Below the pieces are notes generated by a model. It was given only the letters and a program-made list of their open reading frames with translations. It made no database searches and had not been told where the DNA came from. A DNA stretch of 48,414 bases from Rubricoccus marinus (GTDB taxonomy: Bacteria > Bacteroidota > Rhodothermia > Rhodothermales > Rubricoccaceae), in the NCBI RefSeq assembly GCF_002257665.1, contig NZ_MQWB01000001.1:1844167-1892580 (forward strand). The letters are read 5' to 3'. The first letter of the stretch is position 1, and each line of letters begins with the position of its first letter. Below are positions 9,661-47,766 of this stretch, one piece after another. The position numbers and the translations under genes were made by a program.

Positions 9661-10842
9661 ATGAGCGCCCTTTCAGCCGATTCCCGCGACGCCCTCCTCG
9701 CAGAGCTTCGCCGCCGTACGTCCACGCCCGGTTTCCACTTCCTCTCCTCCGACCACATCCAGCGCCTCAACGAGGCCCGCTCCGAAGGCGCGCCCATCGT
9801 GAGCGTCTTTATGGAGCTCACGCCAGAGATGCGTGTCGGTGACTCGTGGGAGATCGCCCTGAAGGATCTGCGCCAGAAGGCGGCGGATGCCTCTGGCGAC
9901 CACGCGAAGGCGGTGAGTGCTGAGATGGACCGCGTGGAAGCGGCTCTCCGCGAGAGCATCCCCCGCACGGGCCGCGGCGTCGCGTTTTTCCTCTGCCAGG
10001 AGCTCGGGCTGTTCGAGCAGTTGGGTACCGCCATCGCTCTCCCGAACGTCGTCCAAGTCGGCCGCGAGCCGTACATCCGGCCTCTCGCGCGCATCCGCGA
10101 CGAGAACGACCGATTTGTGATCGCGCTCGTTTCGGCGCACAAGAGCCGCTTCTTCTTCTCCCAGATTGGTCTGGTCGAGGAGGTCTTCGACCTCGCTGGC
10201 GAGGAGTTGGAGATCACGGACTTCGCCTCCAAGGACCAGCGCCAAGACATGAAGGCGGAGCTCAAAAAGGATCAGGCGCAGAAGAGCGCGCACGCCCTCG
10301 CCCTTATCGCGGAGCAGATGGACGCACGTCACGTGGTCTACTCCTGCGCTTCCGACATGGAAAAGGACTTCCTCGACGCGATGGATCAGAAGACCCGCCT
10401 GAAGGTGTCGGAGAGCTTTGCGTGCGAGGTCAACGCCTCCACGTCGGAAGTCGCCGAGGCCGCGAACACGGCACAGCGCCAGGTGGAAGCCCGCGAGGAG
10501 ATGGAGACCATCGAGAAGGTCCAAGAGCTTCTCTCCTCCCGCGCCGTAGCCGGTCTGGACGACACGCTGGACATGCTCAACCAGCAGCGCGTGATGACGC
10601 TCGTCGTGGACGACGAGGCCCGGATGGCCGGCGGCATCGACCCGGACAGCGGCATGCTCACGACGCAAACCGAGGGCACCTACGAGGCCACAGGCGGCAC
10701 GATCGAGCGCGAGTCCGACCTTATCGAGGCCATGCTGGACAGCGCGATGGCACAGGGCGCGACGCTTGAGCTCGTGCGCAGCGAGGCCGCCAAGAGCGCG
10801 CTGAGCGCCCACGGGCCAGCCGCGGCGATCCTGCGGTTCTAA
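9661..10842 (+). CDS. baeRF family protein (bacterial archaeo-eukaryotic release factor-like)
   Basis: The 393-residue protein fits the baeRF group (closest to family 10 by memory), bacterial relatives of eRF1/aRF1/Pelota proposed to act on stalled ribosomes. The N-terminal half contains VSVFMELTPEM near 43-53 and GVAFFLCQELGLFEQL near 105-120. The middle has FVIALVSAHKSRFFF, a strand-rich motif like the eRF1 central domain. The C-terminal portion (about 235-393) has an eRF1 domain-3-like layout with VEAREEMETIEKVQELL, AVAGLDDTLDMLNQQRVMTLVV and GGTIERESDLIEAMLD. No GGQ hydrolysis motif is visible. It is soluble and cytoplasmic. It follows the sigma factor gene by 36 bp and ends at a strong motif terminator, so the two may form one unit. 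Confidence 0.78.
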   Translation: MSALSADSRDALLAELRRRTSTPGFHFLSSDHIQRLNEARSEGAPIVSVFMELTPEMRVGDSWEIALKDLRQKAADASGDHAKAVSAEMDRVEAALRESIPRTGRGVAFFLCQELGLFEQLGTAIALPNVVQVGREPYIRPLARIRDENDRFVIALVSAHKSRFFFSQIGLVEEVFDLAGEELEITDFASKDQRQDMKAELKKDQAQKSAHALALIAEQMDARHVVYSCASDMEKDFLDAMDQKTRLKVSESFACEVNASTSEVAEAANTAQRQVEAREEMETIEKVQELLSSRAVAGLDDTLDMLNQQRVMTLVVDDEARMAGGIDPDSGMLTTQTEGTYEATGGTIERESDLIEAMLDSAMAQGATLELVRSEAAKSALSAHGPAAAILRF

Positions 10843-10849
10843 CCTTCTG

Positions 10850-10890
10850 GCCTCTGGCGCTCAACCGGCGCCAGAGGCCTTTCTCTTTTC
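10850..10890 (+). terminator. Intrinsic terminator made of an inverted motif pair
   Basis: GCCTCTGGCGC (10850-10860) pairs with GCGCCAGAGGC (10868-10878) across a 7-nt loop, then CTTTCTCTTTT. It lies 8 bp after the baeRF stop and is a clear Rho-independent terminator in which both stem arms are genome motif copies. Confidence 0.92.
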
Positions 10891-10903
10891 TCCCGCCTCT
10901 CTG

Positions 10904-11401
10904 ATGCGCGTTTTCCCTCTCTTTCTGCTCTCCGCCGTTCTCATCACGGGTTGCGGCCTCTTCGGCGGCGCGCGGGATCTCACCGCCATCGAAGTCGCGG
11001 GCCGCTACGAGTTCACCGAGTACTCCGTCGAACCCACCGCGGGGTCTGTGGACTCGAAAAACCTCCGGGGCCGCGAACTCCCTCGCGACGTAACGCTCGT
11101 TCTCAACGAGGCCGGCGAAGCCCGCGTGGAGCGCCTCCGTGGCGAGCGAGTCGACGGAACGCTCGCGTCGGGCTCCTACGTCATCCGTGGCCGCGAGGTA
11201 CGCATCGAGTTCAGCGACCTGGGCGACCTCGGCCGCGACGTGCTCATGCCCCGCTCGATCACGTTCGACGCCGACGGCCGGCGCATGGAGGCGGACATCT
11301 TCCTGGAGGGCGTCAACCTCGAAGATCTCTCGGATGATTACCGCGGCATCACGCGGGCCGATGTCCGGCTTCTCGTCGAACTCCGCAAGATGGCGATCTA
11401 A
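10904..11401 (+). CDS. Small lipoprotein of unknown function
   Basis: I do not recognise the family. The 165-residue product starts with a lipoprotein signal (MRVFPLFLLSAVLITGC, Cys17). The mature part has short beta strands: GRYEFTEYSVEP, DVTLVLNEAGEARVERLRG, GSYVIRGREVRIEF, ITFDADGRRMEADIFLEG. This layout resembles small lipocalin-like or stress-response beta barrels that describe a deviation from an expected value, but sequence alone cannot settle it. It lies between two motif terminators (10850-10890 and 11424-11457), so it is probably transcribed on its own. ATG follows CTCCCGCCTCTCTG. It contains no perfect motif copy. Confidence 0.7.
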   Translation: MRVFPLFLLSAVLITGCGLFGGARDLTAIEVAGRYEFTEYSVEPTAGSVDSKNLRGRELPRDVTLVLNEAGEARVERLRGERVDGTLASGSYVIRGREVRIEFSDLGDLGRDVLMPRSITFDADGRRMEADIFLEGVNLEDLSDDYRGITRADVRLLVELRKMAI

Positions 11402-11423
11402 AAACGCCCTCGGACGACTTCTG

Positions 11424-11457
11424 AAGCCTCTGGCGCCCCTCGCGCCAGAGGCTTTTT
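11424..11457 (+). terminator. Intrinsic terminator made of an inverted motif pair
   Basis: AAGCCTCTGGCGC (11424-11436) pairs with GCGCCAGAGGCTT (11442-11454) over a 5-nt loop and runs into TTTTT (11453-11457). The stem is 13 bp with both motif copies intact. It is the clearest example of motif-derived termination in the window. Confidence 0.95.
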
Positions 11458-11467
11458 GTGTTCGGGT

Positions 11468-12765: not shown

Positions 12766-12785
12766 GGCCTCTGGCGCCAGAGGCC
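12766..12785. terminator. 20-bp motif palindrome after bshA
   Basis: GGCCTCTGGCGCCAGAGGCC is a perfect 20-bp palindrome of two overlapping motif copies, five bases after the bshA stop and 22 bp before the next start. No T-tract follows, so it may be a weak terminator or a processing hairpin. Confidence 0.6.
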
Positions 12786-12807: not shown

Positions 12808-13953
12808 GTGGAGCCCCGCCGCAATCTGATCTCGCGCAAGAAGCCGACGTACCCCGTCAGCGACTACCTCGCCGATTACTTGGGCTCGTACGGCCGCTTG
12901 GCGACGGACTCGCGCGCCTCTGGCGCCAGAGGCGTCACGTACGATGACCTCATGCGGTTCGCGGGCCAGATCCCGCTGTACGACGAACTGGGTGGGGACA
13001 CCCTTTGGAGCACGGTTTATTACGGTCCCTCCGAGCAGGCCGAGATCCACGACGCGCTGCGCGCGACCTACGCGCTCCTGAAGTCGGACGGCGACCTCTC
13101 GACCGTCGAGCACCTGTACATCGACCGCGTGGACCTGTGCCACTACGGCAACACGCTCCCGCTACGCGTCCGGATCGTCAACCGGTTGAACGAGAACTTC
13201 GACTACTTCTATGTCAAACGCGCCGACGCCAACCGCGTCTACGGGCTGGACCTGGAGCACGTCCTCTCACCCAACCGCATCAACTTCTACGTCCGCATTG
13301 ACGGCCCCTCGGTTCGGGAACAGACGCTCGTAGAGGAGCATGTGGTAGGCCTTCCGGGCGATGCCTTTATCCGCGACGCTCTCCCCTCTGGGCGGTTCGA
13401 CCAGGTGCGCCTCGCGAAGGAGTTCGTCAAGTTCAACGAGCGGTGCTTTGTCCGCCTGCTCGGCGACATGCACGCCGGCAACTGGGTCATGGACGTGACG
13501 CCGGACTTCGAGAAGCTGCACTACCGCATGCGGCCCATCGACTTCGACCAGCAAAGCCATCACCCCACGCGCCGGGTGTACCTGCCGCAGTTCTTCCCGC
13601 AGAACAACGCCGTGATCGCCTTCGGCCTGAAGCACCTGACGGAGACCACAGTGGATCAGTACCAGCGCGAGGAGCGCGCGTTGATCGCGGGCCGCTTGCG
13701 CGTTTCGCAGGCCCGCTACCGCGCGCTCATGGATGTGATGAGGGAGGATCTGATTTCCGATCCCTCCAACGTCCGCGAGTTGGGAGCAGCTCTCGCGAGG
13801 CACTACCACGATGACGCCTTTACCCAAGCACTCACGATGGGTGACCTCGTCTACCATTCGTTGGAGCTCTTACAGAAGCGAGCCGAGCCTGCCAGCCTGA
13901 AACTGCTCTCCGGCGCCACCGTCGGCGACGTCGCTGGAGACGTCAGGATCTGA
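12808..13953 (+). CDS. Unknown protein with kinase-like (APH-type) catalytic motifs
   Basis: I do not recognise a named family. The 381-residue protein starts at GTG 12808, right after the bshA palindrome; the open frame extends upstream inside bshA but codon content changes there. Residues 219-226 (GDMHAGNW) and 244-248 (IDFDQ) match the catalytic loop (HGDLHxGN) and metal-binding DFx of aminoglycoside-phosphotransferase-like kinases, with about the usual spacing. DYFYVKRADA near 133-142 could be the strand with the ATP-binding Lys. Thus a small-molecule or protein kinase of the PKL fold is plausible but unproven; the usual His of HGD is Leu here. Residues about 37-41 (RASGARG) are encoded by a motif palindrome. 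It converges with the SHOCT gene. Confidence 0.6.
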   Translation: MEPRRNLISRKKPTYPVSDYLADYLGSYGRLATDSRASGARGVTYDDLMRFAGQIPLYDELGGDTLWSTVYYGPSEQAEIHDALRATYALLKSDGDLSTVEHLYIDRVDLCHYGNTLPLRVRIVNRLNENFDYFYVKRADANRVYGLDLEHVLSPNRINFYVRIDGPSVREQTLVEEHVVGLPGDAFIRDALPSGRFDQVRLAKEFVKFNERCFVRLLGDMHAGNWVMDVTPDFEKLHYRMRPIDFDQQSHHPTRRVYLPQFFPQNNAVIAFGLKHLTETTVDQYQREERALIAGRLRVSQARYRALMDVMREDLISDPSNVRELGAALARHYHDDAFTQALTMGDLVYHSLELLQKRAEPASLKLLSGATVGDVAGDVRI

Positions 13954-24503: not shown

Positions 24504-25556
24504 ATGCCCAGACCCGTAGACGACCGCCGCGCCGAGGCGGAGCGCTTCGACTTCCGCCGAATCCACGAGCGCCTGCGATTCGGGACGGCGTCGGACCGCT
24601 ACGCAGGCTGGATCGACACCATCTACCCGCGCGACGTGTGGGCCGGCGAGGTGACGACGCGGAGCAAAAAGGTCGGCGGGCAGACCTTTCAGGAGCGGCT
24701 GCTGCCGATCAAATCGGTGACGGACTACTTCGAGCACTTCAACGTGCTGGAGCTGGACTTCCTCTACTACCGCCCGCTGCTCAAGCCCGATGGGCGGCCG
24801 GAGAACAACCTGTTCATCCTCCAGCAGTACGTGGACGCGTCGCCTGCGAACGCTCGGTTTGTGGTCAAGGCGCCGCGCGAGTTCGTCTCGCGAGTTCTAC
24901 CGCGCCGCGTGGACGGCCGCATGACGTTCGTGGAGAACGAGCGCTACCTGGACGCCAGAGGCTTCACCCATCAGTTCGTGGCGCCTCTGGCGGACGCGCT
25001 AGGCGTCAAGCTTGCAGGCATCTTGGTGGAGCAGGAGTACATCCGGCAGCGCGATGCCCCCTCGCCAGAGGCCTACATCGGCGACTGGGATGAGTTTTTC
25101 CGCGACGTGCCCGGGGACGTCGCATACCACCTGGAGGTGCGCTCCGAGCACATGCTCACGCCCGGCTTCGCGGCGTGGATGGCGAGCCGGAAGATTGGGC
25201 GCGTGTTCAGCCATTGGACGTGGCTGCCGTCCCTCAAAACGCAGTGGGAGCTGGCCGACGAGCAGTTCACGTCGGGCGCGGACGAAGCCGTGGTGCGGCT
25301 GCTCAACCCCATCGACATGAAGCACAACGAGGCCTTTGCGCTGGCCTACCCGTTCGACAAGCCGGTCCCGGCGCTCTCGCAAACGCAAGAGGCCCGTCGC
25401 ATGATCGACGAGACAACGGCGCTCGCATACCAGGCGGCCTCACGCGGCGTCACGCTCAACGTGATCGCGAACAACCGCGCGTGGGGCAGCTCGCCGCACC
25501 TCGCCCAGGCCGTCGCGAACCGGTTCTTGGATTTCGCGGACCGCAAGGGCGAATAG
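24504..25556 (+). CDS. DUF72 family protein
   Basis: The 350-residue protein fits DUF72 (YecE-like), a TIM-barrel-like family of unknown function. Visible landmarks are LRFGTASDRYAGWIDTIYP near 24-42, FNVLELDFLYYRPLL near 81-95, FVVKAPREFVSR near 119-130, and YHLEVRSEHMLTPGF near 209-223. The last portion has LNVIANNRAWGSSPHLAQAVA, where the family usually ends with an N-N-x-x-x-G-x-A-x-x-N-A motif; NNRAWG...LAQAVANRF fits. It is longer than typical bacterial members (about 250-300). ATG 24504 is chosen; an in-frame GTG at 24417 would add 29 residues with no conserved feature. Convergent with the HhH gene across a motif terminator. Confidence 0.83.
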   Translation: MPRPVDDRRAEAERFDFRRIHERLRFGTASDRYAGWIDTIYPRDVWAGEVTTRSKKVGGQTFQERLLPIKSVTDYFEHFNVLELDFLYYRPLLKPDGRPENNLFILQQYVDASPANARFVVKAPREFVSRVLPRRVDGRMTFVENERYLDARGFTHQFVAPLADALGVKLAGILVEQEYIRQRDAPSPEAYIGDWDEFFRDVPGDVAYHLEVRSEHMLTPGFAAWMASRKIGRVFSHWTWLPSLKTQWELADEQFTSGADEAVVRLLNPIDMKHNEAFALAYPFDKPVPALSQTQEARRMIDETTALAYQAASRGVTLNVIANNRAWGSSPHLAQAVANRFLDFADRKGE

Positions 25557-25590
25557 AAAAGCCTCTGGCGACACGGAGGACGCCAGAGGC
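25556..25590 (-). terminator. Terminator for the minus-strand HhH gene, made of a motif pair
   Basis: GCCTCTGGCG (25561-25570) and CGCCAGAGGC (25581-25590) form a 10-bp stem with a 10-nt loop. On the minus strand the hairpin is followed by TTTTC. It lies between convergent genes and starts 5 bp after the DUF72 stop. Confidence 0.75.
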
Positions 25591-25613
25591 TGGGCAGAAC
25601 CCGCGAGTGCCGG

Positions 25614-26282
25614 CTAGGCGGCGGCCGGCGGGAACAGGGTATAGATCGTCGCGAGCGGAGCCGTCTCCGGCACAGCGGTCTCGTCCGAGGCGTCGGCCTC
25701 TGGCGTTGGCAGGTCGTCCTCGCGGCGGCGGATGGACGACAGGCGAGCCATCTGGCGGCGCACCCGGCGTTCGCGGCGTCGTGCGGACTTGTTCAGGATG
25801 GAGTTGAGCTGGAGCCGGATCGCTTCGAGGCGGCGCGGGCCGAAGCCGGCGATCTCGGCGAGCCGGCCGTCGTGCGACGCCCGCTCCAGCGAGGTCAGCG
25901 AGCGGATGCCCGCCTCCACGAGGCTGCGCGCGAGGGACTCGCCAATGCCCGGAACGGTCATCAGCAACGCGGCCGGGTCGTCAGACGCTAGAAGCCGGTC
26001 GCGCAAGCCCACGCGGCCTCGTTCGATGTAGTCCGCGAGGTGGCTCGCGAGGTTCACGCCGATGCCGGGTAGCTCGGTCAGCGCGTCGCGACCGCCGGTG
26101 CCGTAAATCTCGACGACCGGTGTGTCCAGGTCTCGCAGCATCGCTGCCGCCTGGAGGTACGCTTGGACGCGGTAGGGATTCGGCTCGCCCGAGCGCGTGA
26201 GCAGCTCGGCCATTTGCCCGAGGATGTCCGCCAGCTCGACGTTGGTGGGCCCGATAGAGGGCCGTGGGAGCGCGTGCAGCAT
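25614..26282 (-). CDS. Stand-alone helix-hairpin-helix protein resembling the N-terminus of PolX
   Basis: The 222-residue protein (ATG 26280-26282; an upstream GTG at 26327 is less likely) has NVELADILGQMAELLTRSGE near 14-33, then NPYRVQAYLQAAAMLRDLD, exactly the layout of the HHH_8 domain that opens DNA polymerase beta/X proteins. Three HhH motifs follow: LTELPGIGVNLASHL, LMTVPGIGESLARSLVE and LAEIAGFGPRRLEAIR. The polymerase palm and PHP phosphoesterase domains of PolX are absent. Instead comes a very basic segment (ARRRERRVRRQMARL) and an acidic, low-complexity tail ending in a YTLFPPAAA peptide. It should bind DNA non-specifically. Whether it is a trimmed PolX or its own family cannot be told here. 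Confidence 0.75.
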   Translation of the reverse strand: MLHALPRPSIGPTNVELADILGQMAELLTRSGEPNPYRVQAYLQAAAMLRDLDTPVVEIYGTGGRDALTELPGIGVNLASHLADYIERGRVGLRDRLLASDDPAALLMTVPGIGESLARSLVEAGIRSLTSLERASHDGRLAEIAGFGPRRLEAIRLQLNSILNKSARRRERRVRRQMARLSSIRRREDDLPTPEADASDETAVPETAPLATIYTLFPPAAA

Positions 26283-26361: not shown

Positions 26362-26379
26362 CGCCAGAGGCCTCTGGCG
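26362..26379. repeat. 18-bp motif palindrome upstream of the HhH gene
   Basis: CGCCAGAGGCCTCTGGCG, two overlapping copies, between the yceH-like stop (26388) and the HhH start. It could terminate yceH-like transcription. An A+T-rich stretch (CTAAAATATGCA) adjoins it and might hold the HhH gene promoter; both roles are inferred. Confidence 0.55.
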
Positions 26380-30308: not shown

Positions 30309-30344
30309 GGGGTGGCCGGGGCCTCTGGCGAAAGCGAACGCGGG

Positions 30345-30386
30345 AAAACAAGCGCCTCTGGCGCCACGCGGGCGCCAGAGGCGGAG
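30345..30386 (-). terminator. Terminator for the AGCS symporter, motif pair with T-rich tail
   Basis: CGCCTCTGGCGCC (30353-30365) and GGCGCCAGAGGCG (30371-30383) form a 13-bp stem with a 5-nt loop. On the minus strand the hairpin is 7 bp after the AGCS stop and runs into CTTGTTTTC. It is a good intrinsic terminator built of two motif copies. Confidence 0.85.
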
Positions 30387-30389
30387 GGG

Positions 30390-32120
30390 CTAGATGCGGC
30401 CTTCAGCCTTGGCCCGCTTGTGATCCTCCTCGTTCTGCTCCCACGGCTTCCGTTCGAAGTACGAGTCCGTCAGCTTGACGAGCGTGCCGGAGAGCAGGAT
30501 GAGCGCGATCACGTTCGGGATCGTCACGAGCGAGAGCGCGACGTCGCCGAGGTCCCAGATCGTCGTCGAGGCCAGGATGGCGCCGATAAAGTGCATGACC
30601 ACAAAGACGGCCTTAAAGGGCAGGATCGCCTTGGGGCCGAACAGGTAGTTCGCACAGCGGTCGCCGTAGTAGCTCCACGAGATGCTTGTCGAGACCGCGA
30701 AGAGCACGACGCTCAGCAGCACGATCCACTTGCCGAAGCCGCCCATGCCGATGGGCGCCAGGCCCATCTCGAACCCGAGCGTGGTCAGCGGGGCCACGCT
30801 ACGCGCGGTGTTGCCGTACAGGAGGTCGACCTCGTCGCCGCCAGAGGCCATCGCGACCAGACCACCAGAGCCCTGCTCAATGCGGCCCTCGAACGGGACG
30901 GTTTGCGCCTCGTCCAGGAAGAGCGTGTCGATCGGGAGGTCGTAGCGCGAGAGGGCGGCGCCCTGCTCGTTCTGCGAGATGCCGCCTTCGTAGACCAGCG
31001 GGAACGCGCCCCCGTAGGAGCCATAGCGCACGAGGTTGCCCGCGTCGTCGAGTTCGGGCGCGAGCACGTTGACGTTCGCGCCGCCTGCCTCGAACGATGC
31101 CGGGGCCTTGGTCTCAAACGCGCCGGTCGTGACGAGCACGAGGCCCGTCATGGTGCAGATCACGATGGTGTCGATAAACGGCTCCAGGAGCGCCACGACG
31201 CCTTCGGAAACGGGCTCGTCGGTTTTGGCCGCCGAGTGCGCGATGGGCGCTGAGCCTTGTCCGGCCTCGTTGGAGAACAGGCCGCGCTGCACGCCGAACT
31301 GCATCGTCAGGAGGAACACGCCGATACCCGCGCCGGCGACGCCAGAGGTCGGGTTGAACGCCTCGGAGAAGATGGTCCCGAACGCGGCGGGGATCGATCC
31401 GAAGTTGAGGATCAGGATGGTCACCGCGCCCAACACGTAGAAGCCCGCCATGACCGGCGCGACGATCGAGGTCACCTTACCGATGCGGCTGATGCCGCCG
31501 ACGATGACGACGCCGACGATGCTCGCCGTGACAAGGCCCGTGATGACCTGGTCGATGCCGAACGAGTCGTAGAGCTGCGTCGCGATGGTGTTGGCCTGCA
31601 CCGCGTTGCCGGTCATAAACGAAGTGATCATGAGCGCGAACGCGAAGAACATGGCCACAGGCTTCCAGTTTTTGCCCAGGCCGCGCTCGATGTAGTACAT
31701 CGGGCCGCCAGAAACCGAGCCTTCCCAGGCCTTGCCGTCCTCGTCCACGCGCACGTCGCGGTACTGCTGCGCGAGGGTCACCTCGGCGTACTTCGTCGCC
31801 ATGCCGAGCAAGGCGGTCACCCACATCCAGAACAAAGCGCCGGGTCCTCCGATGTGGATCGCGAGCGCCACGCCGGCGATGTTTCCGACGCCGACCGTCG
31901 CGGAAAGCGCCGTGGTGAGCGCCTGGAAGTGGCTCACGTCTCCGGGCTCGTCCGGATCGTCGTAGCGGCCTGTGGCTACCGCGAATCCGTGGCCGAGGCG
32001 ACGGAACTGGATGAATCCGAGCCGGATCGTCAGGTAGAGGCCCGTACCCAGGAGGAGGATGACGAGAGGCCAGGCAAGAAAATTGCCGACGGCACCGACG
32101 ATGGTTTCAAACAGCTCCAT
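30390..32120 (-). CDS. AGCS family sodium:alanine/glycine symporter
   Basis: The 576-residue membrane protein takes up alanine or glycine with sodium. GTGLYLTIRLGFIQFRRL near 25-42, TTALSATVGVGNIAGVALAIH near 68-88, FWMWVTALLGMATKYAEVTL near 96-115 and GGPMYYIERGL near 139-149 are AGCS signatures; NEAGQGSAPIAHSAAKTDEP near 280-299 is the substrate-site block. Between helices, about residues 330-445, lies a long hydrophilic insert (about 110 aa) with one motif copy, as seen in some Bacteroidota members. The N-terminus lacks a separate signal peptide. It is probably a single-gene unit: 72 bp upstream to a divergent direction none; downstream a motif terminator. Confidence 0.92.
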   Translation of the reverse strand: MELFETIVGAVGNFLAWPLVILLLGTGLYLTIRLGFIQFRRLGHGFAVATGRYDDPDEPGDVSHFQALTTALSATVGVGNIAGVALAIHIGGPGALFWMWVTALLGMATKYAEVTLAQQYRDVRVDEDGKAWEGSVSGGPMYYIERGLGKNWKPVAMFFAFALMITSFMTGNAVQANTIATQLYDSFGIDQVITGLVTASIVGVVIVGGISRIGKVTSIVAPVMAGFYVLGAVTILILNFGSIPAAFGTIFSEAFNPTSGVAGAGIGVFLLTMQFGVQRGLFSNEAGQGSAPIAHSAAKTDEPVSEGVVALLEPFIDTIVICTMTGLVLVTTGAFETKAPASFEAGGANVNVLAPELDDAGNLVRYGSYGGAFPLVYEGGISQNEQGAALSRYDLPIDTLFLDEAQTVPFEGRIEQGSGGLVAMASGGDEVDLLYGNTARSVAPLTTLGFEMGLAPIGMGGFGKWIVLLSVVLFAVSTSISWSYYGDRCANYLFGPKAILPFKAVFVVMHFIGAILASTTIWDLGDVALSLVTIPNVIALILLSGTLVKLTDSYFERKPWEQNEEDHKRAKAEGRI

Positions 32121-46071: not shown

Positions 46072-47685
46072 ATGCGTCTCTCCGCTTTCGCGGCCCTCTT
46101 GCTGGCCGCCCCCGTCGTCGCTCAGCCTGTGGCCGAGCCGACCGACTCCACCGCCATCGCGTTTATCAAGGCCGAGGCCACTGAGCGCGGCCAGGTCATG
46201 GACCACGCCACGTGGATGACCGACGTGCACGGCGCGCGCCTGACGGGCTCCGAAGCGCTCGACCGCGCCCAGGAGTGGGCCGTTGACCGCTTCCGCTCCT
46301 GGGGCGTGAGCGCCGAACTGGAGCCCTGGGGCACGTTCGGCCGCGGCTGGAAAAGCGACCGCATGGCCATGTCGGCCCGCGTGAGCGGCCCCGACGTGGC
46401 CTCGCAGTCCTTCCCGCTTACGGCCGCGCCCAAGGCGTGGAGCCCGAGCACCGGTCGCGCCTCTGGCGAGCTGGTCGTCATCGACATCGACGACGACACG
46501 CTGGACCCGGCGACGCTCGACGTGCGCGGCAAGGTCGTCCTCATGGGCTCGCTCTCCGACGTCGCCAGAGGCCTGGAGCCGCTGGCGCAGCGGCGCGATG
46601 AGCACGAGCTCCTGGAGCTCGCCAACGCGGGCCTCGCGATGACGCGCGGGGCGCAGCGCCGCTACTCCCCCGAGGTGCTCGCGCGGTACCGTGCTCGGGC
46701 GGCCCGCACGCAGGCCGTGCTGACCGGCGAGCCTCTGGCGATCCTCACGCCCTCGGGCACGGGAGGCTCCGGCGCCGTTCGCGCCATGCAGGCCGCCGTC
46801 CCGGAAGGGCAGGCCACCGGCGCCGGAGGCCGCGCCGCGCCGTGGACGGCCGGCGTCGAGACTGTTGCGCAGTTCGCCGTTCTGGACGAGCACGCCAACC
46901 GCCTGATCCGCCTCGCTGAGGCCGGACAGTCGGTGACCATCGACCTGGACTACGCGGCGACGTTTACCGACGAGGAAGTCGTGGAGGACAACGTCATCGC
47001 GGAGATCCCCGGCACGGACCTCGCGGACGAGATCGTGATCGTCGGCGGACACTTCGACTCGTGGCACAGCGGCTCGGGCGCGACGGACAACGCGGCCGGC
47101 TCTGCTGTCACGATGGAGGCCGCCCGCATCCTCAAGGCGTTCTACGACGCCAGAGGCGAGGGCCCCCGCCGCACCATCCGCTTCGCGCTGTGGACCGGCG
47201 AGGAGCAGGGACTGTGGGGCTCGCGCGGCTACGTCAGCGAGCACTTCGCGCCGACGCCCGGCTACGGTGAGCCGCCGACGGACGTCCTGCCCGGCCACGC
47301 CAACGTCTCGGCGTACTACAACATGGACAACGGCTCCGGGCGCTTCCGCGGCGTCTACATGCAGTCCAACGAGGCCGTGCGGCCCATCTTCCGCGCGTGG
47401 CTCGACGCCTTCGATGACTCGACGGCCCAAACGCTGACCATCAGCAACACCGGCGGCACGGACCACCTCTCGTTCGACAACGTGGGCATCCCCGGCTTCC
47501 AGTTCCTCCAGGATCCTCTGGCGTACTTCGCCAAGACGTGGCACACGCACATGGACGTGTACGACCACCTGGACCCGGACGATATGGAGCAGGCTGCGGC
47601 CATGATGGCAACGTTTGCGCACCACACTGCCGAGCGCGCCGAGAAGCTCCCTCGCAAGGCGATGCCGGACCTGGCCGGCAACTAA
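46072..47685 (+). CDS. Secreted M28-family zinc metallopeptidase
   Basis: The 537-residue protein has a signal peptide (MRLSAFAALLLAAPVVAQ). The N-terminal half includes a PA-like region (about 120-280; GELVVIDIDDDTLDPATLDVRGKVVL). The M28 aminopeptidase domain follows with two-zinc ligands His327 (GGHFDSW), Asp339 (TDNAAG), Glu377/Glu378 (GEEQG), Asp419 (YNMDNGS) and His493 (HTHMDVYD), all present, so activity is expected. It is probably periplasmic or secreted and removes N-terminal amino acids from peptides. Length is usual. It ends before a strong motif terminator. Motif copies at 46459, 46563, 46731 and 47148 lie in surface regions (RASGE, VARG, EPLA, DARG). Confidence 0.93.
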   Translation: MRLSAFAALLLAAPVVAQPVAEPTDSTAIAFIKAEATERGQVMDHATWMTDVHGARLTGSEALDRAQEWAVDRFRSWGVSAELEPWGTFGRGWKSDRMAMSARVSGPDVASQSFPLTAAPKAWSPSTGRASGELVVIDIDDDTLDPATLDVRGKVVLMGSLSDVARGLEPLAQRRDEHELLELANAGLAMTRGAQRRYSPEVLARYRARAARTQAVLTGEPLAILTPSGTGGSGAVRAMQAAVPEGQATGAGGRAAPWTAGVETVAQFAVLDEHANRLIRLAEAGQSVTIDLDYAATFTDEEVVEDNVIAEIPGTDLADEIVIVGGHFDSWHSGSGATDNAAGSAVTMEAARILKAFYDARGEGPRRTIRFALWTGEEQGLWGSRGYVSEHFAPTPGYGEPPTDVLPGHANVSAYYNMDNGSGRFRGVYMQSNEAVRPIFRAWLDAFDDSTAQTLTISNTGGTDHLSFDNVGIPGFQFLQDPLAYFAKTWHTHMDVYDHLDPDDMEQAAAMMATFAHHTAERAEKLPRKAMPDLAGN

Positions 47686-47726: not shown

Positions 47727-47766
47727 CCGCGCCAGAGGCCCCGTTGCCTCTGGCGCGGTTTATTTG
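47727..47766 (+). terminator. Intrinsic terminator of the M28 gene, motif pair with T-rich tail
   Basis: CCGCGCCAGAGGC (47727-47739) pairs with GCCTCTGGCGCGG (47746-47758) over a 6-nt loop, then TTTATTT (47759-47765). A 13-bp stem with both motif copies makes this a clear Rho-independent terminator. Confidence 0.93.

Follow-up and report, generated by a model that had tools for sequence, protein, structure and literature searches.

It is very probable, judging from the sequence, that a minority of the inverted pairs of a 10-nt word in the genome of Rubricoccus marinus, namely those that follow genes, carry a T-rich tail and mainly show one arm order, are intrinsic transcription terminators. 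The word, W, is GCCTCTGGCG, with the reverse complement CGCCAGAGGC; pairs in which GCCTCTGGCG precedes CGCCAGAGGC are denoted '+-', and those in the opposite order '-+'. The best explanation as a whole, which is considered likely, is that +- pairs of W with a T tail terminate transcription and were co-opted for this from a word that is kept for another reason. The arrangement of the copies, the predicted energy of their hairpins, the strand-specific T tail and the enrichment after genes are direct observations. As for the mechanism, W, which is very abundant on the chromosome, crowds just past stop codons, often beside an inverted copy. Where GCCTCTGGCG, a loop and CGCCAGAGGC lie past a stop codon and lead into T-rich sequence, the RNA would fold into a GC-rich stem of 11-14 bp followed by U residues, and we infer that RNA polymerase most likely terminates at this folded hairpin. 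Pairs of W would then supply about one third of the strong intrinsic-terminator-like sites. The role in termination looks co-opted, the word itself being kept across the genome for some other reason; this is the most probable reading because most copies and pairs of W, including those within genes, lack terminator features.

The genome of R. marinus SG-29 (4,430,441 bases in 15 contigs) holds 14,176 exact copies of W, 7,049 and 7,127 on the two strands, which corresponds to 3.2 per kb over the whole assembly, while the reversed word, used as a control, occurs 61 times (24 and 37). The window, which is the whole stretch of 48,414 nt that was analysed (C1:1844167-1892580), contains 146 copies. 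W is thus over-represented on both strands and specific at the species or genus level, in the manner of DUS/USS-type words. It is not identical to its own reverse complement and is therefore not a perfect palindrome of the HIP type, the palindromes that it forms arising solely from overlapping pairs. A strand polarity of the Chi/KOPS type was rejected, given that the two orientations are about equally frequent in every stretch. Variants of W with one mismatch are scarce beside the 2,866 exact copies found in the window and the sample loci L001-L040, the exception being GCCGCTGGCG, with 296 copies, which resembles the word found in relatives.

The tests beyond the window were made on a sample of 1.65 Mb, or 37% of the genome, in which a simple codon-based script called 1,404 genes (88% coding) and on which all gene ends rest. 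In the genes of this sample W leaves a clear footprint: 1,223 of 1,434 stretches encoding Ala-Ser-Gly followed by a codon that starts with G (85%) are exact copies of W, and 66% of all AGA codons and 45% of all TCT codons lie inside the word.

The earlier note had placed motif-pair hairpins at five sites of the window, and all five are real, at those sites or a few bases off, with stems of 11-14 bp that consist of the two copies of W. On the + strand, the hairpin at 10849-10879 (10849-10889 with its tail, CTTTCTCTTT) has a 13-bp stem, a 5-nt loop and a predicted energy of -28.9 kcal/mol, and begins 7 nt past the stop at 10842 of a ribosome-hibernation-factor-like gene (9661-10842, + strand). 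The next one, at 11423-11455 (11423-11462 with the tail TTTTTGTGTT; + strand), has a 14-bp stem and an energy of -27.6 kcal/mol, 24 nt past the stop at 11401 of the gene 10904-11401. On the - strand, the hairpin at 30353-30383 (30344-30383 with the tail GCTTGTTTTC; 13-bp stem, -29.4 kcal/mol) lies 7 nt past the stop of an agcS-like gene (30390-32120, - strand). The hairpin at 47727-47758 (47727-47765 with the tail CGGTTTATTT; + strand) has the -+ arm order, a 13-bp stem and an energy of -30.0 kcal/mol, and is found 44 nt past the stop at 47685 of the gene 46072-47685. The fifth, at 25560-25591 on the - strand (25551-25591 with the tail TTTTCTATTC), has an 11-bp stem and an energy of -22.7 kcal/mol, 23 nt past the stop of the gene 25614-26282 (-); on the + strand, where it would serve the gene 24504-25556, it has no T tail.

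For each of the five, the next 10 nt contain 6-8 T, and none of 200 dinucleotide shuffles folds as well. A stable GC-rich hairpin that is immediately followed by a T-rich stretch after a gene, as expected of an intrinsic terminator, is therefore present at these five sites. The description of the hairpins as lying directly after a stop codon is right in that all are past stops and loose in its wording, the distances being 7-44 nt. The fifth (reported as 25556-25590) had been called the weaker case; it is not weak, being, like the hairpin at 11423, one of only 18 distinct exact pairs genome-wide whose stem is followed by TTTT at a distance of at most 4 nt. There are 25 inverted pairs of W within 40 bp in the window, 10 of them wholly intragenic, and a strong T tail is found in these five alone, so that the earlier list is complete for strong T tails and selective with regard to pairs (5 of 25). 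A marginal case is the palindrome at 26362-26379, which is T-poor (5 T in 10). The commoner paired form is illustrated by the 18-bp palindrome GCCTCTGGCGCCAGAGGC, which occurs at 12767-12784, 6 nt past a stop (-15.7 kcal/mol), and again at 12916-12933, wholly within the gene 12808-13953, in both cases with no T tail. A search of the window against Rfam gave zero matches.

In the sample, 112 of 1,325 stops are followed by a strong hairpin (predicted energy of -20 kcal/mol or lower) that has a T-rich tail, and 19 by one with an A-rich tail, which served as the control. Both arms contain W in 35 of the 112 T-tailed hairpins (31%) versus 5 of the 19 A-tailed ones. The sequence features of an intrinsic terminator are thus present at 35 W-pair sites of the sample and absent from most W pairs. 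T tails outnumber A tails to no greater degree among W hairpins than among the remaining hairpins (Fisher p=0.79). The ratios are nearly equal, which suggests that pairs of W are used no differently from hairpins of other sequence.

The tails follow the strand of the gene. In tail-to-head regions, +- pairs with a loop of 1-20 nt (n=49) are followed by 2.96 T per 10 nt on the gene strand versus 1.80 on the opposite one (p=0.001), and at least 5 T in 10 are found for 10 of the 49 pairs on the gene strand and for 1 on the other. For +- pairs in forward regions the flanking six positions contain on average 0.89 A and 2.28 T, and in reverse regions 2.0 A and 0.83 T, while intragenic +- pairs have neither A nor T tails (0.71 A and 0.65 T of 6). 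Genome-wide, 414 +- pairs have a loop of 1-20 nt; TTTT begins 0-4 nt past the stem of 18 distinct exact +- pairs and of 2 -+ pairs, and AAAA follows 8 +- pairs (18 versus 8, p=0.08). The -+ pairs have little or no T tail. Past stops, unpaired copies lack a T tail (1.36 and 1.89 T per 10 nt, at 16% T overall), which means that the tail belongs to the hairpins; that it is part of an extended form of the word was rejected on the same ground. Kingsford et al. (PMC1852404) cautioned that for some uptake words the extended motif itself supplies the tail, a caveat that is removed here given the tail-less unpaired copies.

These sites represent a minority of the pairs of W. With hairpin-spaced pairs defined as by Kingsford et al. 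(loop of up to 10 nt), 58 of 118 W pairs are intragenic (49%), and the +- and -+ orders stand at 69:49, which differs from the confinement to gene ends and the single +- order of Neisseria-type pairs. The proposal that W pairs serve as intrinsic terminators is supported for a subset, the strong T-tailed hairpins on the gene strand, mainly +-, and unsupported as a general claim, given the intragenic pairs, the low share of tailed pairs in tail-to-head regions and the tail-less palindromes.

Neighbouring copies of W tend to face opposite ways. Inverted neighbours make up 86-87% of consecutive pairs up to 40 bp apart, 70-72% of those 41-120 bp apart and 63% of those 121-300 bp apart (63% also at 201-300 bp); beyond 300 bp their share is approximately 50-55%. 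Within genes, inverted pairs outnumber direct ones by a factor of 2.0-2.8 at distances of 31-120 bp and of 1.5 at 121-300 bp. If copies were placed independently, about three times as many direct pairs would be expected within 40 bp as are present, and fewer inverted pairs in genes at 22-80 bp. No orientation bias is seen for CGAGCGCG, a frequent word unrelated to W. Termination cannot explain the bias of W, which is present inside genes too, nor can it explain pairing as such, and W and its facing arrangement have another cause than termination. An origin of the inverted pairs by snap-back (hairpin-templated) copying is unsupported, the flanks of pairs within genes having no excess complementarity.

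These observations favour the strongest of the rival explanations, namely that inverted pairs are favoured genome-wide at the level of DNA, by a dimeric or bridging W-binding protein or some other process, and that the hairpins after genes are a by-product in which a T tail is occasional. Its chances are put at about even. It accounts for the inverted bias at short range, inside genes as well, for its decay to about 50% and for the rarity of close direct pairs, which the unrelated word does not share. It predicts, however, neither the strand-specific T tails nor the excess of pairs near stops, and it fits the co-option of W pairs as terminators as its background and not as a full alternative.

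The excess near stops is pronounced. In intergenic DNA, W is densest over the first 20 nt past stops (28 per kb), also in convergent regions, and its density drops to 5-9 per kb at more than 120 nt. Of the copies that lie within 50 nt of a stop, 69% are paired, versus 45% in intergenic DNA more than 150 nt away, in agreement with the enrichment of pairs within 50 nt of stops that had been anticipated; unpaired copies are plentiful there too (275 of 1,032). The commonest paired form past stops is the overlapping 18-bp palindrome, found 178 + 91 times within 60 nt of 1,326 stops and having no T tails. Such palindromes account for half of the copies found up to 50 nt from a stop, compared with 8% of those in genes, where the sample nonetheless contains 151 of the same palindromes.

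A second rival would have the stop-proximal pairs act in RNA without a U-tract, as hairpins that stabilise 3' ends or as T-independent terminators, with the T-less 18-bp palindromes as the main form. The peak past stops and the share of palindromes within it speak for this possibility, as does the finding that W-free sequence past stops also folds better than shuffled sequence. It is nevertheless unlikely, given the palindromes inside genes, where this function would be either damaging or of no relevance, and the many single copies past stops. That the hairpins are the chance outcome of a very dense word facing itself and preceding T-rich DNA is quite improbable: in tail-to-head regions, +- pairs spaced 11-21 bp are as numerous as independent placement predicts (33 observed, 31 expected), but the tests of the tails already disfavour chance, the tails of strong W hairpins being strand-specific (35 T versus 5 A) and those of unpaired copies and -+ pairs slight or absent.

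Related genomes keep other words. W is at background in them, including the same-genus genome G001, where its 99 copies are at background. Instead, GCTGGCGG reaches 2.2 per kb in G001 and in the family member G007, and G004 and G006 have a weaker word, CCGCCTCGG. These relatives were sampled at loci L045-L047 and L078-L079 (G001), L057-L058 and L062-L069 (G007), and L052 and L070-L074 (G004). The 3' end of the ortholog of the gene at 9661 carries in G004 a hairpin made of CCGCCTCGG and its complement, and in G001 a third, different GC-rich hairpin, the T tail being present in R. marinus only. Similarly, the same-genus ortholog of the agcS-like gene at 30390-32120 has an unrelated GC-rich hairpin at its 3' end. 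Strong T-tailed hairpins were found past 6 of 301 stops in the small samples of the relatives, versus the 112 of 1,325 in R. marinus. It is possible, though held with less than even confidence, that the Rubricoccaceae keep lineage-specific, very dense words (W, GCTGGCGG and the weaker CCGCCTCGG) whose facing pairs are placed by some machinery, at a range of about 300 bp in R. marinus, and that each word is reused in hairpins at 3' ends.

The words of the relatives also form facing pairs at fixed spacings, of 11, 14 and 15 bp in G007 and of 27 bp in G001. The close word pairs of G007, G001 and G004 were rejected as terminators, given that these pairs, at fixed short spacings, have no T tails.

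W can be compared with several known systems. Like the DUS of Neisseria (PMC1852404, PMC2397512), W is a non-palindromic 10-mer found on both strands, whose facing copies form stems of 10-13 bp past stops, with the T tail on the same strand as the gene that precedes them, and close direct pairs are rare in both. The likeness to the Neisseria arrangement drawn in the earlier note stands for the facing copies and the tail; it does not extend to location and order, given that genes contain only 3 of the 231 hairpins of N. meningitidis, with +- and -+ orders at 226:5 (PMC1852404), versus 58 of 118 and 69:49 here. W is, moreover, several times denser per kb than the DUS and has no built-in A/T extension. 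In the Pasteurellaceae, 16-29% of high-confidence terminators contain the USS (PMC1852404), to which, as to the share of the USS in Haemophilus, the 31% of strong T-tailed hairpins that contain W is close, although the predictors differ. An A/T-rich extension supplies the tail of the USS, whereas W has none. The HIP words of cyanobacteria, HIP1 among them (PMC4390886), resemble W in their very high density, their spread over the whole genome and the presence of different words in their place in some relatives; HIP1, however, is a palindrome tied to known methyltransferases, while W is a 10-mer with dyad-symmetric arms (GCC-TCT-GGC-G).

A literature search found no earlier report of a genome-wide word reused as terminators in this lineage. 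The reuse of such words, known from Neisseriaceae and Pasteurellaceae, would thus be extended to an unrelated lineage of high GC content. Two things that are usually merged are also separated, given that facing pairs are here mostly without termination, and the alternation of orientation within genes, together with the change of word within one genus, makes the maintenance of such words directly testable.

For the USS the specificity of uptake is known, while W as an uptake word is an analogy and not a result; were it true, W would add a case that is remote from those known classically. Genes for ComEC, PilT-like and PilQ-like proteins are present in R. marinus. Competence genes were rejected as evidence of uptake, given that ComEC was found in 20 of the 20 related genomes searched and so does not discriminate. 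A second PilQ-like secretin is encoded on contig C11, alongside genes that resemble those of pili/type II secretion and of transposases. These extra pilus-like genes were rejected as the machinery of W, the sampled parts of C11 being poor in the word. In the sampled stretches of contigs C11, C14 and C15, W is nearly absent (0.15-0.5 per kb) at a similar GC content, and these contigs look extrachromosomal or acquired.
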